A stretch of DNA of 64,000 bases from contig JAHHIB010000027.1 of NCBI GenBank assembly GCA_019359075.1, positions 1 to 64,000 of the forward strand. Direction: 5' to 3'. The notes under the pieces are model-generated. The model searched no databases. It was not told the DNA's origin and was given only the letters and a program-made list of their open reading frames with translations. Position 1 is the first letter of the stretch; each line of letters starts with the position of its first letter. Source of the stretch: Kalymmatonema hyalinum WJT4-NPBG1. Its GTDB lineage: Bacteria; Cyanobacteriota; Cyanobacteriia; Cyanobacteriales; Nostocaceae. A program made the position numbers and the translations under genes. This document shows positions 44,287-55,937 of the stretch, in pieces.

Positions 44287-44706
44287 ATGTCTGAAAACGA
44301 TAAAAGCCCGATTGAATTGGCTGAGCTGATCCAACAGGTTAAAGAAGACCTTCTCTCCGTGACACCTGGAAAAGATAAGGATGCGCCTTTCCTGTTTGTT
44401 GAATCTGTGGAACTGGAACTACAAGTCACTGTCAAGCGAACTGGTAAAGCAGGTGTCAAGGGAAATATCAAAATTAATGTGCTAGGGAGTGGAGGCGAGG
44501 TTGGTGGTGAAATTGGTGGCGATCGCGCTCAAGATAGAACTCATAAAGTTAAAGTAAAACTATCTCCACTTTTTGATAAGGAGCGTTTAGTGAAGTTTTA
44601 TGAGCAGGTGTATTCGGAAAATATGCCAGCGACGGTGAAGAACAGTATAACGGGACTCTTCAAAGGTGATGAGGAAAGCAACCTGAATGAAGACCTCGGT
44701 GACTAG
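44287..44706 (+). CDS. Trypco2-like (trypsin-co-occurring) domain protein
   Basis: This 139-residue protein fits the Trypco2 family, small accessory domains found near proteases and CHAT or TIR effectors in conflict systems. The pattern is IELAELIQQVKEDLLSV then an amphipathic beta meander (FLFVESVELELQVTVKRTGKAGVKGNIKINVLGSGGEVGGEIGGDRAQDRTHKVKVKLSPLF). The tail is acidic. It is the first gene of the operon, 28 bp before the CHAT-TIR gene. The molecular role is unknown; guarding or regulating the neighbouring peptidase is an inference from co-occurrence. Confidence 0.7.
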   Translation: MSENDKSPIELAELIQQVKEDLLSVTPGKDKDAPFLFVESVELELQVTVKRTGKAGVKGNIKINVLGSGGEVGGEIGGDRAQDRTHKVKVKLSPLFDKERLVKFYEQVYSENMPATVKNSITGLFKGDEESNLNEDLGD

Positions 44707-44734
44707 TACTCAGACCAATAGGTAAAGGGGTAAA

Positions 44735-46786
44735 GTGAAACTGCTGGAGCTGAGGTTCTATCCAATTGAACGGAAGCAGGATTGCTTCAAAGTGAGTGTG
44801 GAGGGTTCATCAGGAGAAGTCCATCATGAACCACCTCTACCTTTTCTAGATAGTGAGACTCCCGATGTGCAGGACAGGCGTTTCACAGTAGTCAAGATAT
44901 TAGAGTCAACAAAGTTTAATCAGAAGGACTTTTCGCAAGAAGAACAAGCATGGATGGTGCGCGAGCAACTTCTGTTGTCGGAACAGAATGCTTTTCAGCC
45001 TCAATGGTTGGCTACTATTGGGCGTAGACTTTACCAAATATTAGGTCAAAACATTCAGCAGGTGATTGAGGCGGCGGTAGCAGATGCTAAGCGCTTGAGC
45101 ACTTGGTTGCATATTCGCCTAAGGTTTCCAGCAGACGATCCCAAATATGTTCGCTTAACCGATTATCCTTGGGAGTTGCTCCATAACGATTACGGGTTTC
45201 TAGCGCATCAAGGAGTGACTTTCTCGCGCTATATTGCTTATAAGAGTCCTCGTCCCAACTTACCGAGTGTTGAACGGCTCAATGTTTTGTTGATTTCTTC
45301 TGGAGCAGGTGATGATAGAATCGGACTGAAATCATTACCTTCTGATGAGCGAGAAGCGATCGCCCAAGGACTGCAACACGCCCGAGAGCAGGGAGCAATT
45401 CAATTAGAAATTTTAACTCCTCCAACATTAAATACGCTCCGCAGGCGGTTGCTAGAACGCCAAACTGCTGCGGTTCCTCACGTTCTGCATTTTGATGGTC
45501 ATGGCTTTTTCGGTAAGCGCTGTAATGAAGCAGGATGCAGGAAAGCTTATAAACAGAGTAAACAAGAGTGTGAATGCGGTGCAACCTTGGGAGAAGCCCA
45601 AGGTTATTTGGTATTTGAGCAATCAAATGGAACTGCTGATTATGTAAGTGCTCAAGAACTTGGCGAACTGTTGGGTAATTTGGGGCGTCGAGAGCAACCC
45701 AACTCAGAGCAGGGAATTGCATTGGTTGTTCTGAGTAGTTGCAAAAGTGGAATGTCTCGTTTAAGTGATTCTGTTTTCAACGGGGTAGCTCAGAATTTGA
45801 TTGGTCGGGGTATTCCGTCTGTGGTGGCAATGCCGTATTCTATCAGTGTGGCTGCTGCGAGTGCTTTTGCAGAAGATTTTTATCGTTCGCTTGGGCAAAA
45901 AGAGTCACTGGCGATCGCACTACGGCGGGGACAAAGTGCAATGGGAATTGAAGGAAATCAGTGGTATCGTCCTGTGCTGTATCTGCGTTGGGAGGATAAT
46001 GACGGAGGACAACTCTTTGATCAGGTTGTACGAGCGATGAACGAGGAATTTGTAAATCCATTGGCACAGAAGGAACAAAATCTGATCTGGAAAGATACTC
46101 ATATGACAGCGACATATGAATATGATGTATTTATTAGTCATGCAAGTGAAGATAAGGAAGATTTTGTAAGACCTCTAGCTAAAGAGCTACAAAATAGAGG
46201 TTATCGAGTCTGGTATGATGAAATTTCTTTGAGTTGGGGAGACAACCTAAGTAGTTCAATTGATAAAGGTATTTCACAATCAAAGTTTGGAATTATTGTA
46301 CTCAGTCAAAATTTCTTTAAAAAGAAATGGACAGAGCGTGAGTTAAATGGATTTGTTTCCAAAGAAGTCAATGATGAAAAAGTCATACTTCCTATTTGGC
46401 ATCAGGTATCAAAAAAGGAAGTTTTAGCTTTTTCTCCAACTCTTGCTGGTAAAATTGCAATCGATTCTTCTCAAGGAATTGATTATATTGTTAATAAATT
46501 TGTTGATATCATGACCCAGAACGATGTCCCTCATTCTAAGCCTATAGACAATTTTCCCGAAAACTCACCATCATCAAATTCTCCTCAGATATTACCAAGG
46601 ATAAAATCATCACGTCAGCAACTTCGTCTTCAAGAGGAACTTACAGATTTACGAGAAGAAAGGGAGGCTTGTAACAACCAATATCGTTCAGCAATAGATG
46701 AAGCTCAACGAGTTCGTTTAAAAAGAAAACTTGATGATTTAGACAATCAAATAGATAACATAGAGCGTCAACTAGATAATATGTGA
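44735..46786 (+). CDS. CHAT protease - TIR protein with C-terminal coiled-coil adaptor
   Basis: This 683-residue multidomain effector has a GTG start with AAGGGG upstream. CHAT (caspase-like) domain: about 180-430 with catalytic His in VLHFDGHG (about 256) and Cys in VVLSSCKSG (about 335). Between them lies a four-Cys zinc-ribbon-like insert (KRCNEAGCRKAYKQSKQECECG). TIR domain: about 458-590 with YDVFISHASEDKEDF and the probable NADase Glu in KKWTERELNGF. The last ~55 residues form a charged coiled coil (LQEELTDLREEREACNNQYRSAIDEAQRVRLKRKLDDLDNQIDNIERQL). This coil is nearly identical to the N-terminus of the next protein, pointing to homotypic recruitment. CHAT may cleave proteins and TIR may deplete NAD when the system is triggered; both activities are inferred from intact motifs. 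Confidence 0.88.
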   Translation: MKLLELRFYPIERKQDCFKVSVEGSSGEVHHEPPLPFLDSETPDVQDRRFTVVKILESTKFNQKDFSQEEQAWMVREQLLLSEQNAFQPQWLATIGRRLYQILGQNIQQVIEAAVADAKRLSTWLHIRLRFPADDPKYVRLTDYPWELLHNDYGFLAHQGVTFSRYIAYKSPRPNLPSVERLNVLLISSGAGDDRIGLKSLPSDEREAIAQGLQHAREQGAIQLEILTPPTLNTLRRRLLERQTAAVPHVLHFDGHGFFGKRCNEAGCRKAYKQSKQECECGATLGEAQGYLVFEQSNGTADYVSAQELGELLGNLGRREQPNSEQGIALVVLSSCKSGMSRLSDSVFNGVAQNLIGRGIPSVVAMPYSISVAAASAFAEDFYRSLGQKESLAIALRRGQSAMGIEGNQWYRPVLYLRWEDNDGGQLFDQVVRAMNEEFVNPLAQKEQNLIWKDTHMTATYEYDVFISHASEDKEDFVRPLAKELQNRGYRVWYDEISLSWGDNLSSSIDKGISQSKFGIIVLSQNFFKKKWTERELNGFVSKEVNDEKVILPIWHQVSKKEVLAFSPTLAGKIAIDSSQGIDYIVNKFVDIMTQNDVPHSKPIDNFPENSPSSNSPQILPRIKSSRQQLRLQEELTDLREEREACNNQYRSAIDEAQRVRLKRKLDDLDNQIDNIERQLDNM

Positions 46787-46845
46787 ATTACAAGCTTTAT
46801 TGGTGAAGATATATTAATTAATATTAAAAGATAAATTTTAGCCAA

Positions 46846-47808
46846 ATGTTATTTGATAGTGAGCGTGAAAAGCTTCGCAAAGATTATGCAGATTGTATTG
46901 TTGAACGAGAGGTTTGTAATAATCAGTACCGTTCGACTATAGATGAAGCTCAACGAGTCCGTTTAAAAAGGAAACTTGATGGTTTTGACAAACAAATAAA
47001 TGAACTGGAACGTCAGCTATCTGGACAGGATTTAACTGCAGATGCTAATCGTCGCTCTCGTGCCTTAGAAGAGAAGCTTCCCAAAATAGACTTTAAAAAA
47101 CAAATAGGGATTGTAAAAGATATTTTGGAGCAATTTGCAGAATATGGGGCTGCTCTCTTTTTTATAAACGATAGCTTCAACATGGCAGGAGATTTATTTA
47201 GTTTAGAATTAAAAAATTGCTTAAAAGATGAGACAACAGACTTAAAGCATTATGAGATAGCCTTCTCAGTTGACAGAAGATTGGACGAAATAGGTTTTCT
47301 CCAAGGATTGGGAGGTTATTTGGGTATTGATGAAATCAATAGTAAAGAAGAATACTCAAAAGTTATTGAAAAGTTTTTTGGCTTTATAGAAAATGGAAGT
47401 ATTGTTTTTATTGAACTGAGAAAAATTGACTTATTAGATGATAAAGAAAATTTCTTGTCTTGGTTGGTAGACTTTTTCTGGAAATCATTAGTTGAAGAAT
47501 TACCTTTAATTTGCAAAAATAAAGATATTGAACAAGTAAAGTTTATAATTCTTGTGACTTCAGATGATGATATTTTTGATGAATGTTCCAGTTTGCCATT
47601 TTTTTGTCATGAAGAATCCTTTGATATCTATCAAATTTTTGCAATTCTCTTGACGGAGTGGAGTGAAAAAGAAATTCATCTTTGGCTGACAAAACACTCA
47701 GGATTACCTAAAAAGAAAATTACTCCAATCGCTAAGAGTGTTTATAAGTCAAGTCGTGGTGGTACTCCTAAACTTATCTGTGATGCACTAAAAAATAAAC
47801 TGAATTAG
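46846..47808 (+). CDS. Adaptor coiled coil plus STAND-like (iSTAND?) domain protein
   Basis: Residues 1-58 (REVCNNQYRSTIDEAQRVRLKRKLDGFDKQINELERQL) repeat the C-terminal coil of the CHAT-TIR protein, about 28 of 35 core residues identical. The remaining ~250 residues look like a P-loop-type regulatory domain of the inactive STAND kind. Regular alpha/beta alternation is visible (ALFFINDSFNMAGDLFS, GSIVFIELRKIDLLDD, VKFIILVTSDDDIFDE), with helices near the C-terminus (RGGTPKLICDALKNKL), but no proper Walker A. Being between the effector and the MoxR gene, it probably links signal sensing to CHAT-TIR recruitment. The STAND assignment is tentative. Confidence 0.6.
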   Translation: MLFDSEREKLRKDYADCIVEREVCNNQYRSTIDEAQRVRLKRKLDGFDKQINELERQLSGQDLTADANRRSRALEEKLPKIDFKKQIGIVKDILEQFAEYGAALFFINDSFNMAGDLFSLELKNCLKDETTDLKHYEIAFSVDRRLDEIGFLQGLGGYLGIDEINSKEEYSKVIEKFFGFIENGSIVFIELRKIDLLDDKENFLSWLVDFFWKSLVEELPLICKNKDIEQVKFIILVTSDDDIFDECSSLPFFCHEESFDIYQIFAILLTEWSEKEIHLWLTKHSGLPKKKITPIAKSVYKSSRGGTPKLICDALKNKLN

Positions 47809-47837
47809 TTTTTTTACGTTTATTTCTGGAGTAGCTT

Positions 47838-48815
47838 ATGAATTTGCCTGCTAAATTGACTTTTGAAAACAATCCCAATCGGCGTCCCGAAAATCCACAT
47901 AAACATTCACCAACGCGCCCAGAGCCATATGTCGTTTCTTCAGAATTAAAGAAAGCTGTGAATTTGGCAATCTATCTCAGGCGACCATTATTATTAGAAG
48001 GAGACGCCGGGTGTGGTAAGACTCGTCTTGCTTCGGCTGTTGCCTATGAGTTAGGACTTCCTCTTTATCGTTGGGATATCCGTTCCACTACTAAAGCGCA
48101 GGATGGACTCTATGAATATGATGCTATCCTCAGATTGCATGATGTGCAAACACAGAAAGTAGAGCAAATACAGTCAGTAGATGAAGCAGAAACTGACGAG
48201 GAGGAAGATGAGGAAAGAGTCAATCATAATCCTGCTAACCCCAAACATTACCGTAAATTTGGAGCTTTAGGAAAGGCATTTCAGCTAAAGAATCACCCAG
48301 CAGTTGTACTGATTGATGAAATTGACAAAGCAGATTTGGATTTCCCGAATGATTTGTTAACAGTTTTAGATGAACCTTGGGAATTCAAAATTAAGGAAAC
48401 GGGGGAAACGATTCGCGCTACACACAAACCAATTGTCATTATTACCAGTAATAAGGAAAAAGGTAACTTACCTGCGCCATTTCTGCGTCGTTGCCTGTAT
48501 CATTATGTAGACTTCCCAAACGATGCGAAACGGTTGCAGGATATCGTCGAGAAGCATTACCAGATTCGTGAGGAAGAATCACCGCCTCCTAATTTGGTAA
48601 ACACAGCAATTGAGCGTTTTCTAAATGTGTGGAATGAAGGCGGACTTTTCAAGAAACCAGGAACCAGCGAATTTCTCGATTGGCTGAAAGCACTCCATAC
48701 CTTTGAGCCAAAACCTTACAGCGCGACGCAACTGAAAAAAGACAAGTTGCTTCCCTACCGAGAGTTATTATTTAAGCTGCAACAGGACTGGAAGAAGTAT
48801 GCCAAAGCCTCATGA
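47838..48815 (+). CDS. MoxR-family AAA+ ATPase
   Basis: This 325-residue AAA+ protein has Walker A EGDAGCGKTRLA (about 55-62), Walker B AVVLIDEIDKADLDFPNDLL (about 155), sensor-1 IVIITSNKEKGNLPAPFLRRC and an acidic insert (DEAETDEEEDEERVNHNP). MoxR proteins remodel vWA-domain partners. The stop overlaps the next start as ATGA (48812-48815), so translation with the vWA gene is coupled. MoxR-vWA pairs followed by a third VMAP protein are known as NTP-dependent ternary conflict systems; this gene supplies the ATPase. Confidence 0.92.
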   Translation: MNLPAKLTFENNPNRRPENPHKHSPTRPEPYVVSSELKKAVNLAIYLRRPLLLEGDAGCGKTRLASAVAYELGLPLYRWDIRSTTKAQDGLYEYDAILRLHDVQTQKVEQIQSVDEAETDEEEDEERVNHNPANPKHYRKFGALGKAFQLKNHPAVVLIDEIDKADLDFPNDLLTVLDEPWEFKIKETGETIRATHKPIVIITSNKEKGNLPAPFLRRCLYHYVDFPNDAKRLQDIVEKHYQIREEESPPPNLVNTAIERFLNVWNEGGLFKKPGTSEFLDWLKALHTFEPKPYSATQLKKDKLLPYRELLFKLQQDWKKYAKAS

Positions 48816-49906
48816 ATTCCTTTAATCCACAAGGTTTGATTGTTCGCGCTTTCATTCGTTTGCGCCAAAGTGGTTTTCAGCTTGGCGTCGGAGAACTTTT
48901 GGCAGCACGGCAAGCGGTTGAGGGGGGATTTGGGGAAAATGAAGAAGCACTGGCAGAGACATTAAAGATTTTATGGTGTCACTCCCCATCCGAACAAAGC
49001 CAGTTTGACCCCATCTGGGAGTCTTTGCTGATGAGTTCGACTCCCAAACAATCCGAAAAACCTCCTCCAAGAGAACCAAAGCTTGAGCCTCCTCATCAAG
49101 AGCGGATGGAGGAACCGCAGAAACCATCGTCACCGCCTCCCGAAGAGGCTGTAACTGAGATCAAGTCTAAACCAGAACTGGCATCGCTCCCGATTCGGGC
49201 ACCTTTTACACCAGTGGAAAACGAGGATACATCTACATTACAGGCATATTATCCCATCTCCCGTCGTTCCATGGTTTATAGTTGGCGGTATCTACGGCGA
49301 CCTGTTGCTGATGGTCCATTAGATGTGCTAGATGTCAATGCAACCATTGAGCAAGCCACCCGCCAGGGATTTTACTTAACTCCAGTCTACCGCAGACGAG
49401 AACAAAATAATGCTCATCTGTTGTTGCTGCTCGATCAAAATGGCTCAATGACGCCGTTTCATCGCTTCACTCGCGATTTAGTGGAAACAGCAATCTACGA
49501 AAGTTGTCTGCAACCGGAAAAGGTAAATGTATTCTATTTCCATAACGTTCCTGCTGCGAGTGTTTACAAAGACCTTTACCTGACAGAACCAATTGCCTTA
49601 CAGACAGTATTAGAAACCTGCGATAATGAAACTAGCATATTGATTGTCAGCGATGCTGGGGCAGCACGAGGGTATCGGAAGTTAGAGCGAATTCGAGCGA
49701 CTACGAGTTTTTTATTTCAACTAAAGCGGTACACTTCTTTGATTGCTTGGTTAAATCCGATGCCGGAAGAACGTTGGATTGGCAGTTCGGCAGAAATTAT
49801 TGCCAATTTGGTGCCAATGTACCAGATGGATAATAATGGCTTAAGTAATGCTATTGATATTGTGCGCGGGCAACCCCTACAACACTTACATTCACCTTTT
49901 TCATGA
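48812..49906 (+). CDS. vWA-like partner of MoxR
   Basis: This 364-residue protein has a CoxE-like N-terminal region (NPQGLIVRAFIRLRQSGFQLGVGELLAARQAV), a proline/glutamate-rich linker (KPPPREPKLEPPHQERMEEPQ) and a vWA-like domain from about residue 198 (AHLLLLLDQNGSMTPFHRFTRDLVETAI). The metal-site motif is D-x-N-G-S instead of the classical D-x-S-x-S, so ion binding may be altered. SDAGAARG follows at the expected second-loop position. It overlaps the MoxR gene by ATGA on one side and the VMAP-FGE gene by ATGA on the other, giving a tightly coupled three-gene unit. Confidence 0.85.
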   Translation: MNSFNPQGLIVRAFIRLRQSGFQLGVGELLAARQAVEGGFGENEEALAETLKILWCHSPSEQSQFDPIWESLLMSSTPKQSEKPPPREPKLEPPHQERMEEPQKPSSPPPEEAVTEIKSKPELASLPIRAPFTPVENEDTSTLQAYYPISRRSMVYSWRYLRRPVADGPLDVLDVNATIEQATRQGFYLTPVYRRREQNNAHLLLLLDQNGSMTPFHRFTRDLVETAIYESCLQPEKVNVFYFHNVPAASVYKDLYLTEPIALQTVLETCDNETSILIVSDAGAARGYRKLERIRATTSFLFQLKRYTSLIAWLNPMPEERWIGSSAEIIANLVPMYQMDNNGLSNAIDIVRGQPLQHLHSPFS

Positions 49907-51885
49907 CAACTGTGGCTGATGACAAGCAATGGGGAGAACAGGCAAAGCAAGCAGTAGAACGGTTTGTTGGGCGTTTTGATGAGTCTTATCGGCTGCTTTT
50001 GTATCATGCTGCATTACCTTTGGTGCTAACTCCAGAATTAGTAAACTACTTACGCAATAAGTTCTTGCGAGGTGAGCAAGTTCCTTGGGTGGCGGAGGTT
50101 GACTTGTTGCTGTCTGACTTATGCAGTCAAGTGGGGTACGAACTTTACGCGATGGATACCCATGTGCGAGCATATCTGCTGGAGCAAATGAAGAAAGACT
50201 GTGGCGAACAGCGAATGCAGGAAGTTGCGCAAGTTTTAATCAGCTATGTGAGCTATCTGAGTCGGCTGAATCCGGGGCGACGGCAACAGGAATTAGAAGC
50301 GCAACGATGGGCGGCAATGGTATTTTTGGGGGATGAACAGTGCAAAGAAGCAGCACGAGAGATTGCCAAGCGGCTCCAAGAGACTAGTAGTGGAACGGGT
50401 TCCGAAAACCGTACTGAGTCAGGAATTCGGGCGGAATTAGCGCGATTGACACGAATTACCTCTGAGCTATCAGCCCAGTTACAGCAAGAACCAATCTTGC
50501 TGGAGTTGGCAAGCCTGATCCAGCGAATCTTAAGAACGCCAGAGACAGTTAATCCGGCAGAACTGAATCGTTCCTATCGGATAGGTGATGAGGAACTCAC
50601 AATCCCAGATAGATTATTGCCAGAAGGTTTGCGCTTAAGGGCGATGTCATCTTCTAGGCAAACAGTTGCTGGGCTTGAAGGGTTACCGCCAGTACAGACT
50701 TTTGAGTTTGAAGTAGCAACTATCACTATCTCTGATGGAGCAGAAACTTCTCTAAGTATCAACCTGCAACCTTTTGAATTTGAAGTCGCACTTATAGAGG
50801 TTAATGAATCTGCTCAAAACACTACAGGTAGTCCTCTCGAAATGGCAAATGAGATGATTTTTACGAAAACAGGAAAACATCTCAATGATATTGAACAGTT
50901 AATACTACAAGGAACATTCGCCAATCAAACCTACGAGCAAATTGCAGCAGCGTCAGCACAATACTCTGCACGTCATCTAAGCAATGTTGCTCTCAAGCTG
51001 TGGGAAGTTTTATCACAAGTGCTTGGTGAAAAAGTCACCAAAAAAAATCTTCAAAACGTCCTCCAGCGATGGACTGCTCGTCGTCTAACCATTCATCGTC
51101 GTCGTCAGCAAGCTCAGGAGTTTATCGAAGATTTAGGGAATGGAGTGCAGCTAGAAATGGTAGCTATTCCTTCTGGAAGCTTTGTGATGGGATCTCCAGA
51201 AGATGAACCTGAGCGCTCAAGCGATGAAAGCCCTCAGCATACAGTCACGATTAAATCTTTCTTTCTAGGCAAGTATCCTGTAACTCAAGCACAATGGCAA
51301 GCAGTAGCTTCTCTCCCACAAGTTAACCGCGAACTTGACGCTGAGCCATCTCATTTTAAAGGAGAAAATCGCCCAGTTGAGCAAGTTTCGTGGTATGATG
51401 CTGTTGAGTTTTGCGATCGCCTGTCTCAACACACTGGTAAACCCTACCGTTTACCAAGTGAAGCCGAATGGGAATATGCTTGTCGTGCGGGTACGACGAC
51501 TCCATTTCACTTTGGTGAGACAATTACATCTGAGTTGGCAAACTATAACGCTAACTACACGTATGGTGCTGGTGTCAAAGGGGTTTACCGCGAGGAAACA
51601 ACACCTATAGGTAGCTTTGGTGTAGCGAATGCCTTTGGACTATACGATATGCATGGCAATGTCTGGGAATGGTGCACTGACCATTGGCATAATTCTTATG
51701 AAGGAGCGCCCACAGACGGAAGTGCATGGTTAGATGATAATGATAATTATAATGATAATCGTATGCTGCGTGGTGGTTCTTGGCTCCTCAATCCTGAGGA
51801 CTGCCGTTCGGCGTATCGCGGCAACGACGATGCGGGCCTCAGGCACTACGCCGACGGTTTTCGTGTTGTGTGTGCTGCTGCGTGA
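49903..51885 (+). CDS. VMAP-type protein with C-terminal FGE-sulfatase sensor, DGR target 1
   Basis: Third member of the MoxR-vWA unit (660 residues). The first ~230 residues are a helical region not assigned (AVERFVGRFDESYRLLLYHAALPLVLTPELVNYLRNKF). Residues about 312-395 match the helix-turn-helix-like N-terminal segment of cyanobacterial VMAP and NTPase proteins (LNDIEQLILQGTFANQTYEQIAAAS...LWEVLSQVLGEKVTKKNLQNVLQRW). Residues about 405-660 are an FGE-sulfatase/SUMF1 domain of C-type-lectin fold (GNGVQLEMVAIPSGSFVMGSPEDE, YPVTQAQWQAVA, YRLPSEAEWEYACRAGT, NVWEWCTDHW). The final 40 residues are encoded by variable region 1. The protein is probably a ligand sensor, not an enzyme, with a hypervariable binding face. 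Confidence 0.85.
   Translation: MTTVADDKQWGEQAKQAVERFVGRFDESYRLLLYHAALPLVLTPELVNYLRNKFLRGEQVPWVAEVDLLLSDLCSQVGYELYAMDTHVRAYLLEQMKKDCGEQRMQEVAQVLISYVSYLSRLNPGRRQQELEAQRWAAMVFLGDEQCKEAAREIAKRLQETSSGTGSENRTESGIRAELARLTRITSELSAQLQQEPILLELASLIQRILRTPETVNPAELNRSYRIGDEELTIPDRLLPEGLRLRAMSSSRQTVAGLEGLPPVQTFEFEVATITISDGAETSLSINLQPFEFEVALIEVNESAQNTTGSPLEMANEMIFTKTGKHLNDIEQLILQGTFANQTYEQIAAASAQYSARHLSNVALKLWEVLSQVLGEKVTKKNLQNVLQRWTARRLTIHRRRQQAQEFIEDLGNGVQLEMVAIPSGSFVMGSPEDEPERSSDESPQHTVTIKSFFLGKYPVTQAQWQAVASLPQVNRELDAEPSHFKGENRPVEQVSWYDAVEFCDRLSQHTGKPYRLPSEAEWEYACRAGTTTPFHFGETITSELANYNANYTYGAGVKGVYREETTPIGSFGVANAFGLYDMHGNVWEWCTDHWHNSYEGAPTDGSAWLDDNDNYNDNRMLRGGSWLLNPEDCRSAYRGNDDAGLRHYADGFRVVCAAA
51763..51884 (+). 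other. DGR variable region 1 (VR1)
   Basis: Aligned by eye with the template repeat (54492-54613), VR1 differs at 16 of 122 positions, and all 16 are adenines in the template. The altered codons are AAC or GAA codons of the template (for example AAC AAC to CTC CTC; AAC to GGC, GAC, CTC, CAC, TAC, GCC). Non-adenine positions are all identical. The last 29 nt (GGTTTTCGTGTTGTG...GCGTG) have no adenine and are the likely initiation-of-mutagenic-homology region. Six further adenines changed only in VR2 remain unaltered here. Confidence 0.95.
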
Positions 51886-52137
51886 ATTCAGTAGCCCTTT
51901 ATACTTTTACTCTTTTGCCCTTTACCGTTTTTTCTTTTTTCTTGCGAGCGGAGCGAGCAGAATTTTTTAGAGAAAGTATTAGCTCACAAAGTTTCTCTGT
52001 AAACTGCTAGGATACCAAGACGCAAAGTTTTTTTGGTTAATGAGTGCGATGCTTCAACAATAATATCATATTTTGGGAATAGCTCAATCATCACAAACAA
52101 AGTATTCAGAGAGGGACAATCAAGCAGGTAAGAATCA
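51886..52137. other. Gap between the two DGR target genes
   Basis: The first ~80 bp (TCAGTAGCCCTTTATACTTTTACTCTTTTG...GCGAGCGGAGCGAGC) are nearly the same as the flank after VR2 (52974-53045), so the 3' flank was duplicated together with the gene end. The rest is non-coding as far as can be seen. A minus-strand ORF here (51984-52250) is not supported. Confidence 0.6.
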
Positions 52138-52980
52138 ATGCCAAAAATAGTCATTAACCGTTCAGGGCGGACAGCGCAATATTTTATAGAAGACTTGGGC
52201 AATGGAGTTGAACTAGAGATGGTGCTGATTCCTGGGGGTAGTTTTCTCATGGGGTCGCCAGAAGATGAAATTGGGCACGATGAATCGGAAAGTCCTCAAC
52301 ACTTAATAACCATTAAACCCTTTTGTATGGGTAAGTATCCTGTCACTCAAGCACAGTGGAAGGCAGTAGCTTCTTTCCCACAAGTGAACAGCGAACTCGA
52401 TGCTGATCCATCTGAATTTAAAGGAGAAAATCGCCCCGTTGAGGAAGTTTCTTGGCATGATGCTGTCGAATTTTGCGATCGCCTATCCTCACATACCAAA
52501 AGACCTTACCGTCTACCGAGTGAAGCCGAATGGGAATACGCTTGTCGTGCTGGAACGACCACTCCATTTCACTTTGGTGAGACGATTACAACTGATTTAG
52601 CAAATTATCGAGGTACAGATAACGAAGAGTATAAATGGTCAGGTTCCTATGGTCAAGGTCCGAAAGGGATTTACCGCGAGGAGACAACACCTGTAGGTAG
52701 CTTTGGTGTAGCGAATGCCTTTGGGCTATATGATATGCACGGGAATGTATGGGAATGGTGTGCTGACCATTGGCACGAAAACTATGAAGGAGCGCCCACA
52801 GACGGAAGTGCATGGTTAGATGATAATGATAATAATAATGATAATCGTATGCTGCGTGGTGGTTCTTGGGACAGCCTTCCTGAGGACTGCCGTTCGGCGT
52901 ATCGCGCCTACGACGTTGCGGGCGGCAGGAACCTCAACTTCGGTTTTCGTGTTGTGTGTGCTGCTGCGTGGACTCAGTAG
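52138..52980 (+). CDS. Stand-alone FGE-sulfatase-domain protein, DGR target 2
   Basis: This 280-residue protein consists only of the FGE-sulfatase (C-type-lectin fold) domain after a short lead (MPKIVINRSGRTAQYFIEDLGNGVELEMVLIPGGSFLMGSPEDE). It is very similar to the end of the preceding VMAP protein (YPVTQAQWKAVASFPQVNSELDADPSEFKGENRPVEEVSWHDAVEFCDRL, NVWEWCADHWHENYEGAPTDGSAWLDD). The repeated DNDNNNDN stretch precedes the variable part. The C-terminal ~45 residues come from variable region 2. It lacks the helix-turn-helix and N-terminal regions of its paralogue, so it may be a secondary or decoy sensor. Its start codon follows a ~250 bp gap. Confidence 0.88.
   Translation: MPKIVINRSGRTAQYFIEDLGNGVELEMVLIPGGSFLMGSPEDEIGHDESESPQHLITIKPFCMGKYPVTQAQWKAVASFPQVNSELDADPSEFKGENRPVEEVSWHDAVEFCDRLSSHTKRPYRLPSEAEWEYACRAGTTTPFHFGETITTDLANYRGTDNEEYKWSGSYGQGPKGIYREETTPVGSFGVANAFGLYDMHGNVWEWCADHWHENYEGAPTDGSAWLDDNDNNNDNRMLRGGSWDSLPEDCRSAYRAYDVAGGRNLNFGFRVVCAAAWTQ
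52849..52970 (+). other. DGR variable region 2 (VR2)
   Basis: Aligned by eye with the template repeat, VR2 differs at 17 of 122 positions, all at template adenines (for example AAT to CTT, AAC to GCC, TAC, GGC, CTC, TTC, GAT to GTT). The pattern differs from VR1, so the two were diversified independently. Together 22 of the 30 template adenines are changed in at least one VR. The reading frame then continues to GCG TGG ACT CAG and a stop, whereas VR1 ends directly in GCG TGA. Confidence 0.95.
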
Positions 52981-53064
52981 CCCTTTATACTTTTACTCTT
53001 TTGCTCTTTATCCTTTTTTCTTTATTCTTGCGAGCGGAGCGAGCTGAAAAATTTTTTTGAACAA

Positions 53065-53415
53065 ATGGACGAATTACCAATTATCCAAAAAACCTATGAT
53101 TTAATCAAATGGTACGTGCCAATCCTCAACCGTCTGCCACGAGATCATAAATTTATGCTGGGCGACCGGATGATTACTGGACTGTATGATTTGTTAGATG
53201 GTTTAATTATAGCTAAATATGCTCCCGATAAATTAGCGAAATTACAATCGTTGAACAGCAAGTTAGACATTTTACGCCATCAAACCCGTCTTTTATTAGA
53301 CTTTGAACTCATTAAAGTTCAACGCTACGAATATGCGGGACAACTTATCAACGATATTGGGACAGACTTGGGAGCATGGATTAAACAACAACGCAAGCGG
53401 CAAACATCTCCATGA
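53065..53415 (+). CDS. avd: DGR accessory protein Avd
   Basis: Avd is a small basic four-helix-bundle protein that forms a pentamer, binds the DGR reverse transcriptase and template RNA, and is needed for mutagenic retrohoming. The 116-residue protein matches: [50 protein letters not shown] then [50 protein letters not shown]. The stop overlaps the reverse transcriptase start as ATGA (53412-53415), so the two are translationally coupled. Confidence 0.92.
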
Positions 53416-54470
53416 AGCGTTACGGCAATCTTTGGTCTCAAGTGATTGATTTTGAGAATATAATGCAAGCAGCCCGTCAAGCGCAACGGGGAAAGCGGTT
53501 CCGAGGAAATGTTTTAACGTTCAACTATAACTTAGAACAAGAACTAGCGCGACTCAAGACAGAATTAGAAACAAAAACCTATCAACCAGGCGCTTATCAT
53601 ACCTTTGAAATAGTAGAGCCTAAGCGGCGAATGATTTCTGCTGCACCGTATCGGGATAGAGTAGTGCATCATGCTTTGTGCAACATCATAGCCCCAATTT
53701 TCGAGCGCACATTTATTGGCGATTCTTATGCCAATCGGGTAGGTTTTGGGACTCATCGCGCTTTACGCAGATTCACAAGCTTTGCTCGTTCCAGCCGTTA
53801 CATTCTCCAGTGTGATATCCGCAAATATTTCCCCAGTATCGACCACGAAATTCTCAAATCTCTCTTGCGCCGTAAGCTGAAATGCAAGGAGACACTGTGG
53901 TTAACCGATACAATTATTGATAACAGCAACGAACAAGACCCAGTTTTAGACCATTTCCCTGGAGATGATTTGCTCACACCGCTGCAACGTCGGCGTGGCT
54001 TACCAATAGGCAATCTCACCAGTCAGTTTTTCGCTAACATTTACCTCAACGGATTTGACCATTTTGTCAAAGAGCATCTCAAAGCAGCGAAGTACGTTCG
54101 CTATGTCGATGATTTTGCCTTATTTTCAGACGATTGGGAATTTCTTGCCGAAGCACGAGTGGCAATAGAAAATTATTTAGTCGGATTAAGACTGAAAATT
54201 CATCCGGTCAAAAGTCAATTATTTGAAACGCGACACGGAGCTAATTTCTTAGGTTTTCGGATTTTACCCGACCGTATCCGAGTACGGACAGAGAATTTAA
54301 GACGCGCTAAAAGACGACTCAGGCGAATGCAACGAGAGTATGCTCAAGGTAAGATGAGAGAGCAAGAAGTCTCGCAATCGATTCAAAGTTGGGTCGCTCA
54401 TCTAGAACACGGCGATACTTGGAAATTGCGCCAACAGATATTCGCTACTCTGGTCTTTTCCAGAGGGTGA
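53412..54470 (+). CDS. DGR reverse transcriptase
   Basis: This 352-residue reverse transcriptase of DGR type makes adenine-mutated cDNA from the template RNA. Motifs in order: [35 protein letters not shown] (catalytic Asp, about residue 136), the DGR hallmark [18 protein letters not shown] (IGNLTSQ, about 199, instead of the Q-G form of retroviral and group II RTs), [15 protein letters not shown] (YVDD, about 231) and a thumb region ([27 protein letters not shown]). It has no maturase or endonuclease domain, as expected. The template repeat begins 21 bp after its stop codon. Confidence 0.97.
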
Positions 54471-54491
54471 AGACGGGACAGGCACCCCCGA

Positions 54492-54613
54492 ATGCTGCGT
54501 GGTGGTTCTTGGAACAACAATCCTGAAAACTGCCGTTCGGCGTATCGCAACAACAACGATGCGGGCAACAGGAACAACAACAACGGTTTTCGTGTTGTGT
54601 GTGCTGCTGCGTG
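54492..54613 (+). repeat. DGR template repeat (TR)
   Basis: The TR lies directly downstream of the reverse transcriptase gene. It has 30 adenines, mostly in 11 AAC codons plus one AAT in the target frame. AAC is the codon whose adenine mutations give the widest amino-acid range without creating stop codons. The tracked ORFs here (54492-54782, 54499-54777, 54398-54768) are only the translation of the TR and its flank and are not genes. TR adenine 54491 also differs from both VRs, so the repeat may extend a few bases upstream. Confidence 0.96.
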
Positions 54614-54760
54614 CACTCTTCTGTACCAGAACTGGCGGATGGGAATTCGTCGGGCGTGTCGAAGAAGAGTCCAGACCTGTTCCGGTGATGTCGGTGAGTC
54701 AGCGCTGCGGGAGGGTTTCCCTCCGCAGGCGACTGCGAACCCGAAGGGTGACGGCATCCA
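54614..54760 (+). ncRNA. Probable structured spacer of the DGR template RNA
   Basis: Downstream of the TR is a region without coding signal that ends in a GC-rich hairpin: TGCGGGAGGG (54706-54715) with CCCTCCGCA (54719-54727) around TTT, with one bulge. In characterised DGRs, sequence 3' of the TR is required for cDNA priming, so this is a likely functional part of the template RNA. The hairpin also resembles a dispersed repeat of this genome, so the boundary is uncertain. Confidence 0.5.
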
Positions 54761-55010
54761 AAAATCAAACAGGATGAGGTAGCTTAGTAAGCTTGCTGAA
54801 CGGTTGCCTCGTCATCAAACTCCTCATCATTACAGCGCTTATTCTTATGAATAGACCACAAATCTTCTGGTGGTCATTACCTATGAAAGCCTATATGATG
54901 GACATCTGAGATATTGGTTGGCAATGCCTACCCTACTCAAATTCAGAATTCTGAATTTAAAATTTAAAATGCTTATACCATAAGGTTTTCATCTATATTA
55001 AATAATAGCT
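54761..55010. other. Intergenic, no gene seen
   Basis: This is a convergent gap between the DGR and the CoiA-like gene. It contains an AT-rich stretch (CAGAATTCTGAATTTAAAATTTAAAATG) of a kind often seen in cyanobacterial spacers. No feature is assigned. Confidence 0.4.
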
Positions 55011-55937
55011 TTATTTCTGCCGTGCTGTAGTAGCCTCCTCAAGAAGATCCATTTCATTTTGGTCGAGTACTTTGGGCTTCATTTGGTGTAGGTCATTCAG
55101 CACATTTTTGGCATTTTCAGTATTGAATTTGTAGTATTCTGTCAAACTTCCAATCTTGTGATTGAAATCTTGATAGCGGTGCTTGAAATACTTCTCTACA
55201 TTCCCTCGATGTTCCCAAGTTCCTAGCACTTTGATATCAACACTTTGGTAATGCTCAAGTAAATCCATTTCTACTTCTGCTACTCGTTTTCTAATAGATC
55301 GCTGGGTGACTCCAATTTTGTACAAAAGCTCCTTGTTTGTTTGAATTTCTAAAAAATAGAGAGTGCAGGATAGGACTCGTTTGAGTTGAGCACAATACAG
55401 TTTTAAATCTGTTAATCTGTAGCCCAAATCAGGAGCATTTTTATGTTTGGCGTGTTCTACGGCTAACTCTAACTTCAGTAATTGTTTAAGTAATAACGGC
55501 TCTTGTACTTCATTAAATAGCATTAACGAGAGTGATCCAACAGGGATTTTACCCAGATTGGTGAATTCATATTGATGTGGAAAAGTAAAAACATTTTTTT
55601 GTAATAATCCTGCTCGAATTAGACCAGAAGGAACTAGGTCAGGACTTATAAAGTAATTTTTGGAACCATACTCTTGCCAGAGTAGTTTCAATTGCTTTAA
55701 ATCTTTACCTGATAAATGAATGTTGAAGTTGTCATAGAGTGGTAGAACTGGAAAATCACGGGTTGATATCGGACGGCAGGTTTCGACCGCATGGGCAAAA
55801 TGATGTTCTTTTATCTTGCCTTTTTTGGCAGTCAGCTTGCAATCGCAATAAGGACACTTAAGTGAGGTTTTTCCCTTGGTAACATCTTCAATACTTACCA
55901 GTATGCCATCTTCATCTACGCCAAATTTTAGCCACAT
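55011..55937 (-). CDS. CoiA-like zinc region plus GIY-YIG/T5orf172-like protein
   Basis: This 308-residue protein begins with a segment like the zinc-finger part of competence protein CoiA (TSLKCPYCDCKLTAKKGKIKEHHFAHAVETC). The middle (about 75-190) is not assigned. The C-terminal part has the start of a GIY-YIG-type nuclease domain (LYFLEIQTNKELLYKIGVTQRSIRKRVAEVE, then HRGNVEKYFKHRYQDFNHKIGSLTEYYKF). A role in DNA processing, perhaps of incoming DNA, is an inference. It is convergent with the DGR and does not appear to belong to it. Confidence 0.7.
   Translation of the reverse strand: MWLKFGVDEDGILVSIEDVTKGKTSLKCPYCDCKLTAKKGKIKEHHFAHAVETCRPISTRDFPVLPLYDNFNIHLSGKDLKQLKLLWQEYGSKNYFISPDLVPSGLIRAGLLQKNVFTFPHQYEFTNLGKIPVGSLSLMLFNEVQEPLLLKQLLKLELAVEHAKHKNAPDLGYRLTDLKLYCAQLKRVLSCTLYFLEIQTNKELLYKIGVTQRSIRKRVAEVEMDLLEHYQSVDIKVLGTWEHRGNVEKYFKHRYQDFNHKIGSLTEYYKFNTENAKNVLNDLHQMKPKVLDQNEMDLLEEATTARQK

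Follow-up and report, generated by a model that had tools for sequence, protein, structure and literature searches.

Ternary conflict systems built on iSTAND, a MoxR-type AAA+ ATPase, and a von Willebrand factor A (vWA) protein, and their link to diversity-generating retroelements (DGRs), were described by Kaur et al. 2020 (PMC7159879). The helical linker of the vWA component has been named vWA-L and is separately encoded in a minority of iSTAND systems (eLife 2021, PMC8195603). Dore et al. 2024 (PMC10907252) proposed DGR-diversified ternary systems as antigen sensors, including a clade 5A with one short and one long target, and co-expression and adenine-specific mutation were detected for the Nostoc punctiforme locus Npun_F4885-F4892 (mBio 2025, PMC12691664). 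We analyzed a 64,000-nucleotide stretch of Kalymmatonema hyalinum WJT4-NPBG1 (contig JAHHIB010000027.1), hereafter the window, in which a plus-strand block at 44287-54809 comprises, in order, Trypco2, TCAD3-CHAT-TIR-EAD9, EAD9-iSTAND, MoxR, vWA, a vWA-linker-FGE protein with variable region 1 (target 1; VR1), a second FGE protein with VR2 (target 2), Avd, the DGR reverse transcriptase (RT), and the template repeat (TR). We propose, with a probability of roughly 0.6, that this block is a chromosomal iSTAND-type MoxR-vWA ternary conflict system with its own DGR, in which sensing by diversified FGE domains would lead to CHAT-TIR-mediated cell arrest or death.

Gene identities were assigned by Pfam domain searches of the window proteins, and Avd was assigned with the NF033474 curated cut-off (Table 1). 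All genes listed in a preliminary description of the window were found on the plus strand in the order given there, and the two ATGA overlaps that it had noted across MoxR, vWA, and target 1 were located at 48812-48815 and 49903-49906. A third ATGA overlap, between Avd and RT, lies at 53412-53415. Scans of the locus for promoters and terminators gave a yield not above chance. The features expected of an iSTAND system are present: iSTAND beside MoxR and vWA, cognate EADs on iSTAND and the effector, and a split vWA-L.

This organization resembles the iSTAND systems of Kaur 2020 and PMC8195603, in which iSTAND also lies beside MoxR and vWA, EADs are found on both iSTAND and a signalling enzyme, and FGE is carried on vWA-L. 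It differs from them in that the EAD9 partner is a CHAT-TIR fusion accompanied by Trypco2, and in the addition of a stand-alone second FGE target and of a STAND-type module within vWA-L-FGE. Clades 5A and 5E of Dore et al. share with the window a DGR of a multicellular bacterium with C-type-lectin targets beside MoxR, an adapter (Trypco), and TIR/CHAT effectors. The text of that study (PMC10907252) does not name iSTAND and reports a VMAP domain in some clade 5E loci only, whereas the third component is an iSTAND or diverged iSTAND in the window and in loci L014, L015, L021, L034, and L054. Npun_F4885-F4892 has CHAT, MoxR, vWA, two targets, and RT in the same order as the window, a likeness drawn from these genes only. 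VMAP ternary systems with DGRs have the same scaffold, one of them (L012) with Trypco2 and CHAT fused to VMAP, but the window has no VMAP domain. The suggestion in the preliminary description that the gene combination may be new was mostly wrong, since systems of this kind were published between 2020 and 2025. What sets the window apart is its CHAT-TIR-EAD9 effector, which comes with Trypco2 and is linked to the core through a matched pair of EAD9s, as well as the extra module of target 1.

The locus had been described as containing a VMAP component. Pfam searches revealed no VMAP-C or VMAP-M domain in any window protein, although the same library and search detected VMAP-C in comparison loci L010, L012, L025, and L027, and the VMAP assignment was rejected. 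Inspection of the window MoxR found no Trp before Walker A, so that the VMAP-type N-terminal WxhapG/PsWRxa motifs are absent. The place of the third component is taken by the EAD9-iSTAND protein (46846-47808), in which no P-loop motif (GxxxxGK[ST]) occurs. A survey of 292 sampled genomes of the phylum yielded 29 iSTAND loci; MoxR directly follows iSTAND in nearly all of them, and vWA-L is encoded 2.4-3.3 kb downstream on the same strand in 20. The third components of L014, L015, L021, L034, and L054, which Pfam does not label iSTAND, match an iSTAND-protein profile with E values of 1e-13 to 1e-22, and iSTAND systems with DGRs are therefore commoner than Pfam suggests. A second iSTAND locus of the genome, L184 (G000:C135, 8568-11181, minus strand), looks decayed; it encodes a truncated MoxR, iSTAND, and a caspase-like protein that has a coiled segment at its C-terminus.

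Target 1 comprises a helical vWA-L (residues 1-220 or so), a STAND-type N-terminal module (residues ~311-394), and an FGE/C-type-lectin domain (residues 418-656). In three loci (L111, L118, and L121), vWA, the N-terminal region of target 1 (NTE), and FGE follow one another in a single open reading frame of 898-934 amino acids. Because its N-terminal region is fused behind vWA in these loci, the 660-amino-acid FGE protein is not the third component; judged from the fused sequences, it is the split-off C-terminal (vWA-L-FGE) half of the vWA component. Of the earlier claim that the sensor of a VMAP component carries a variable region, the presence of VR1 in the FGE protein stands, but the protein belongs to the vWA component. 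The N-terminal region is equated with the published vWA-L by its position and helical content, not by a profile match. An AlphaFold model of residues 1-240 was mostly helical (pLDDT 86.5), as expected of vWA-L, and gave no significant fold match when compared with the PDB (best E value, 0.8). The full-length model was poor across the VR part, and the FGE part matched TvpA (2y3c) with an E value of 9.8e-30. The inserted module (residues 311-394, window ~50833-51084) is absent from ten aligned homologues and resembles the N-terminal segment of NB-ARC/STAND proteins that are common in the sampled cyanobacterial genomes.

The complete DGR noted in the preliminary description, with two variable FGE targets, Avd, RT, and TR, was borne out by comparison of the repeats. 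VR1 differs from TR at 16 positions and VR2 at 17, and all 33 mismatches fall on TR adenines (hypergeometric P values of 3.5e-12 and 4.7e-13, respectively). By this pattern, both VRs are products of adenine-specific rewriting. At all 92 non-A sites both match TR, whereas the FGE DNA upstream of them agrees between the two targets at only 84% of positions (536/640); this contrast suggests that the VRs were rewritten from TR recently. Codon position 1 or 2 holds 29 of the 30 TR adenines, and the theoretical diversity would reach, as an upper limit, ~10^17 protein variants per VR. The other hallmarks of a DGR are likewise present, namely, an RT with the DGR-type IGNLTSQ and YVDD motifs, Avd, and targets with the C-type-lectin fold. 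Stems of 7 bp at 51874-51895 and 52960-52981 are candidates for the DNA hairpin that lies just downstream of the VR in BPP-1; they are kept in no relative beyond L006, and a conserved hairpin at this site was rejected. An identical 17-mer, TTGCGAGCGGAGCGAGC, lies 3' of each target gene (51942-51958 and 53028-53044), with no other copy in the window, and is probably a trace of target duplication.

A third VR was found at a remote site on contig C29 (G000:C29:28411-29552; L005 8912-10049), in a frameshifted EAD1-FGE gene that adjoins an EAD1-trypsin gene. It differs from TR at 22 positions, 15 at TR adenines and seven elsewhere, and the frameshift lies just upstream of the VR. This gene is perhaps an old, remote DGR target, possibly dead, or else reflects an assembly error.

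The effector is predicted from its motifs to combine a caspase-like CHAT protease with a TIR NAD hydrolase. The CHAT His and Cys active-site motifs are intact (HFDGHG at 252 and SSCKSG at 334), and the TIR domain, with its WxxxE motif at 532 (WTEREL), matches the Acinetobacter NAD hydrolase AbTir (PDB 8g83/7uxu; E value of 1.3e-45 to 8g83), with which it shares the catalytic-site Trp and Glu of WxxxE. It differs from AbTir in being fused between CHAT and EAD9. The EAD9 copies of the effector and of iSTAND are identical at 36 of 56 residues, and the genome encodes one further EAD9 above the cut-off. Of five loci compared, four have an effector EAD9 whose best score is with the EAD9 of the neighbouring iSTAND, a sequence pattern that fits the published idea of homotypic adaptors. 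Different effectors occupy the same slot of one scaffold: trypsin-EAD9 with Trypco1 in L165 and L174, trypsin-EAD9 in L167, CHAT-EAD9 with Trypco2 in L023, and CHAT-TIR-EAD9 with Trypco2 in the window. Trypco2, described with trypsin in Kaur 2020 (PMC7159879), adjoins CHAT proteins in L012, L023, L191, L192, and the window, and Trypco1 lies beside trypsin in ~20 sampled loci and never beside CHAT. A strict pairing of Trypco1 with trypsin and Trypco2 with CHAT was rejected, as Trypco2 adjoins trypsin or trypsin-NB-ARC in L185-L189.

When GTDB genomes were searched with the window RT, 56 loci were recovered, almost all of them from cyanobacteria; the closest RT (91%) belongs to a Scytonema metagenome-assembled genome (MAG). 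Adenine-specific TR/VR pairs were found in ~40 of these loci. The coupling of the DGR to the conflict system had been staked on homologous loci keeping the DGR with the MoxR-vWA genes, and of the 36 RT loci whose upstream sequence was long enough, 23 carried MoxR. Conversely, Avd lies 4.1-5.5 kb downstream on the same strand in 10 of the 29 iSTAND loci. The order iSTAND, MoxR, vWA, vWA-L-FGE, (FGE), Avd, RT, TR recurs in many cyanobacteria, across families, and L023 has the gene content of the window minus TIR, with RT and Avd inverted. The association of a DGR, a MoxR-vWA conflict system, and a CHAT-TIR effector is thus supported, with gene order kept in relatives.

Table 1. Features of the ternary system and its DGR in the window
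Feature	Position	Strand	Evidence or remark
Trypco2 protein, 139 aa; predicted protease partner	44287..44706	+	Pfam PF19631 E 2.4e-18
TCAD3-CHAT-TIR-EAD9 predicted effector, 683 aa	44735..46786	+	Pfam TCAD3 5.9e-26, CHAT 3.8e-26, TIR_2 7.9e-23, EAD9 2.4e-9
EAD9 copy 1, C-terminus of CHAT-TIR protein	46622..46777	+	36/56 identical to copy 2
EAD9-iSTAND, ternary-system third component, 320 aa	46846..47808	+	Pfam iSTAND 1.1e-12, EAD9 4.5e-9
MoxR-type AAA+ ATPase, 325 aa	47838..48815	+	Walker A GDAGCGKT, Walker B VLIDE
vWA protein, 364 aa	48812..49906	+	Pfam VWA_CoxE 1.6e-10; MIDAS-like DQNGS at 208
DGR target 1, 660 aa, C-terminal FGE/C-type-lectin domain	49903..51885	+	FGE 1e-56
VR1	51763..51884	+	16/16 mismatches at TR adenines
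DGR target 2, stand-alone FGE/C-type-lectin protein, 280 aa	52138..52980	+	FGE 1.5e-56
VR2	52849..52970	+	17/17 mismatches at TR adenines
Avd accessory protein, 116 aa, full-length	53065..53415	+	NF033474 E 5.4e-41, above curated cut-off
DGR reverse transcriptase, 352 aa	53412..54470	+	RVT_1 6.1e-22; YVDD at 231, IGNLTSQ at 199
TR, 122 nt, 30 adenines	54492..54613	+	TR/VR comparison
Structured 3' element of TR RNA	54616..54809	+	Covariance model match 130 bits

Directly 3' of TR lies an RNA element, absent from the preliminary description, that extends the DGR to 54809. Its sequence and structure are conserved across cyanobacterial DGRs, with 32 base pairs and 95.7% of cells paired, and 24 of the 32 pairs have compensatory changes among 28 loci compared with a mean of 12.5 after shuffling. 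A covariance model had a single match in the genome, at window 54616-54809 (130 bits), where the element carries a GC-rich insertion in one loop. The model also matched nearly all complete cyanobacterial DGR loci examined, including loci outside its training set, and gave weak matches to a planctomycete DGR (L047) and to an endosymbiont MAG of gammaproteobacterial type (L049). No family in Rfam 15 matched the element, and no description of this RNA family was found in the literature searched. The flanks of TR are part of the DGR ribonucleoprotein (PMC12691664), and the element probably belongs to the RNA bound by RT and Avd. Adjoining the operon on the minus strand, at 55011-55937, is a gene with a CoiA-like N-terminus and a T5orf172/MUG113 (GIY-YIG-like) domain.

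In the proposed mechanism, RT and Avd would copy the TR RNA, erring at adenines, and the cDNA would rewrite the 3' ends of the two FGE genes. Homology suggests that a ligand, most likely an invader's, would be bound both by the FGE of target 1, at the face displayed on the vWA-L half of the split vWA component, and by target 2, whose FGE stands free. Binding may then, through vWA and ATP hydrolysis by MoxR, remodel the complex with EAD9-iSTAND, whose EAD9 would cluster or release the EAD9-tagged TCAD3-CHAT-TIR, a step supported by the matched EAD9 copies. The CHAT protease, probably tuned by Trypco2, and the AbTir-like TIR NAD hydrolase could thereby arrest or kill the cell and spare its filament neighbours; the genome encodes a HetR homologue, which fits a filamentous organism. 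Several points weigh against this mechanism. Diversification in N. punctiforme cultures was barely above detection (PMC12691664), and the MIDAS-like DQNGS motif of the window vWA is non-canonical, with Asn replacing the first Ser. The literature searched contained no ligand, phage phenotype, or NADase or protease activity for cyanobacterial members, and no phage-protection experiment for the family. With PADLOC, only generic TIR, RT, CHAT, and AAA models matched, and iSTAND, vWA, FGE, and Avd had no defence-family match.

The diversified FGE domains might instead be effectors, with iSTAND sensing the invader (e.g., its nucleic acid), MoxR-vWA acting as a switch, and protease-released FGE blocking or containing invader molecules, as argued in Kaur 2020 (PMC7159879) and the 2021 paper (PMC8195603). 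FGE does occupy the effector position of the vWA component, as do many unrelated effector domains in sister systems, and the vWA-L of some relatives ends without FGE (L175, L177, L179, and L180). FGE as sensor is favoured because an enzymatic effector, CHAT-TIR, is already joined to iSTAND through EAD9, which leaves less need for a second, binding-only effector. A diversified lectin-fold protein elsewhere, the BPP-1 tail fibre, is a ligand binder, and we consider an effector role for FGE unlikely, though it carries some weight. The signal sensed by FGE might also be unrelated to phages, arising from self/non-self recognition between filaments or from stress or developmental cell death (the view of Vallota-Eastman 2020). 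Cyanobacterial DGR targets do carry signalling domains, and a role of the locus in phage defence or as an adaptive receptor is a hypothesis. HetF is one of the CHAT proteins with a role in cyanobacterial development. Matched TIR/CHAT/EAD modules and rapid effector swapping are, on the other hand, typical of conflict systems, and non-phage signals appear quite improbable as the main input.

DGRs without MoxR (13 of 36 RT loci) and iSTAND loci with no nearby Avd (19 of 29) would be expected if the DGR and the ternary genes were unrelated neighbours, but fusion of a DGR target to the vWA component or its linker refutes the strong form of this explanation, and gene order kept across families, short spacing, and a single strand make it very improbable in any form. 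The conflict-system reading could be extended to a bacterial adaptive immune receptor, in which variants of two DGR-diversified lectins, arising within one filament and selected by infection, would trigger, through MoxR-vWA-iSTAND and EAD9 clustering, death by caspase-like proteolysis and NAD loss, and in which the remote EAD1-FGE receptor beside the EAD1-trypsin gene may formerly have been a further target of this DGR; we view this extension as quite improbable.

The locus makes a good test case, being compact, with its catalytic motifs intact, both targets rewritten recently, and only one effector, which is matched to the core. With iSTAND rather than VMAP recognized as the third component, and with the vWA component seen to be split, the apparent lack of VMAP in many cyanobacterial DGR loci has a possible explanation. 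The conserved RNA beside TR provides a handle on the working of cyanobacterial DGRs and a means of locating them in genomes. If the published hypothesis is true, multicellular cyanobacteria would possess a receptor that is coupled to cell death and diversifies itself in an anticipatory manner.

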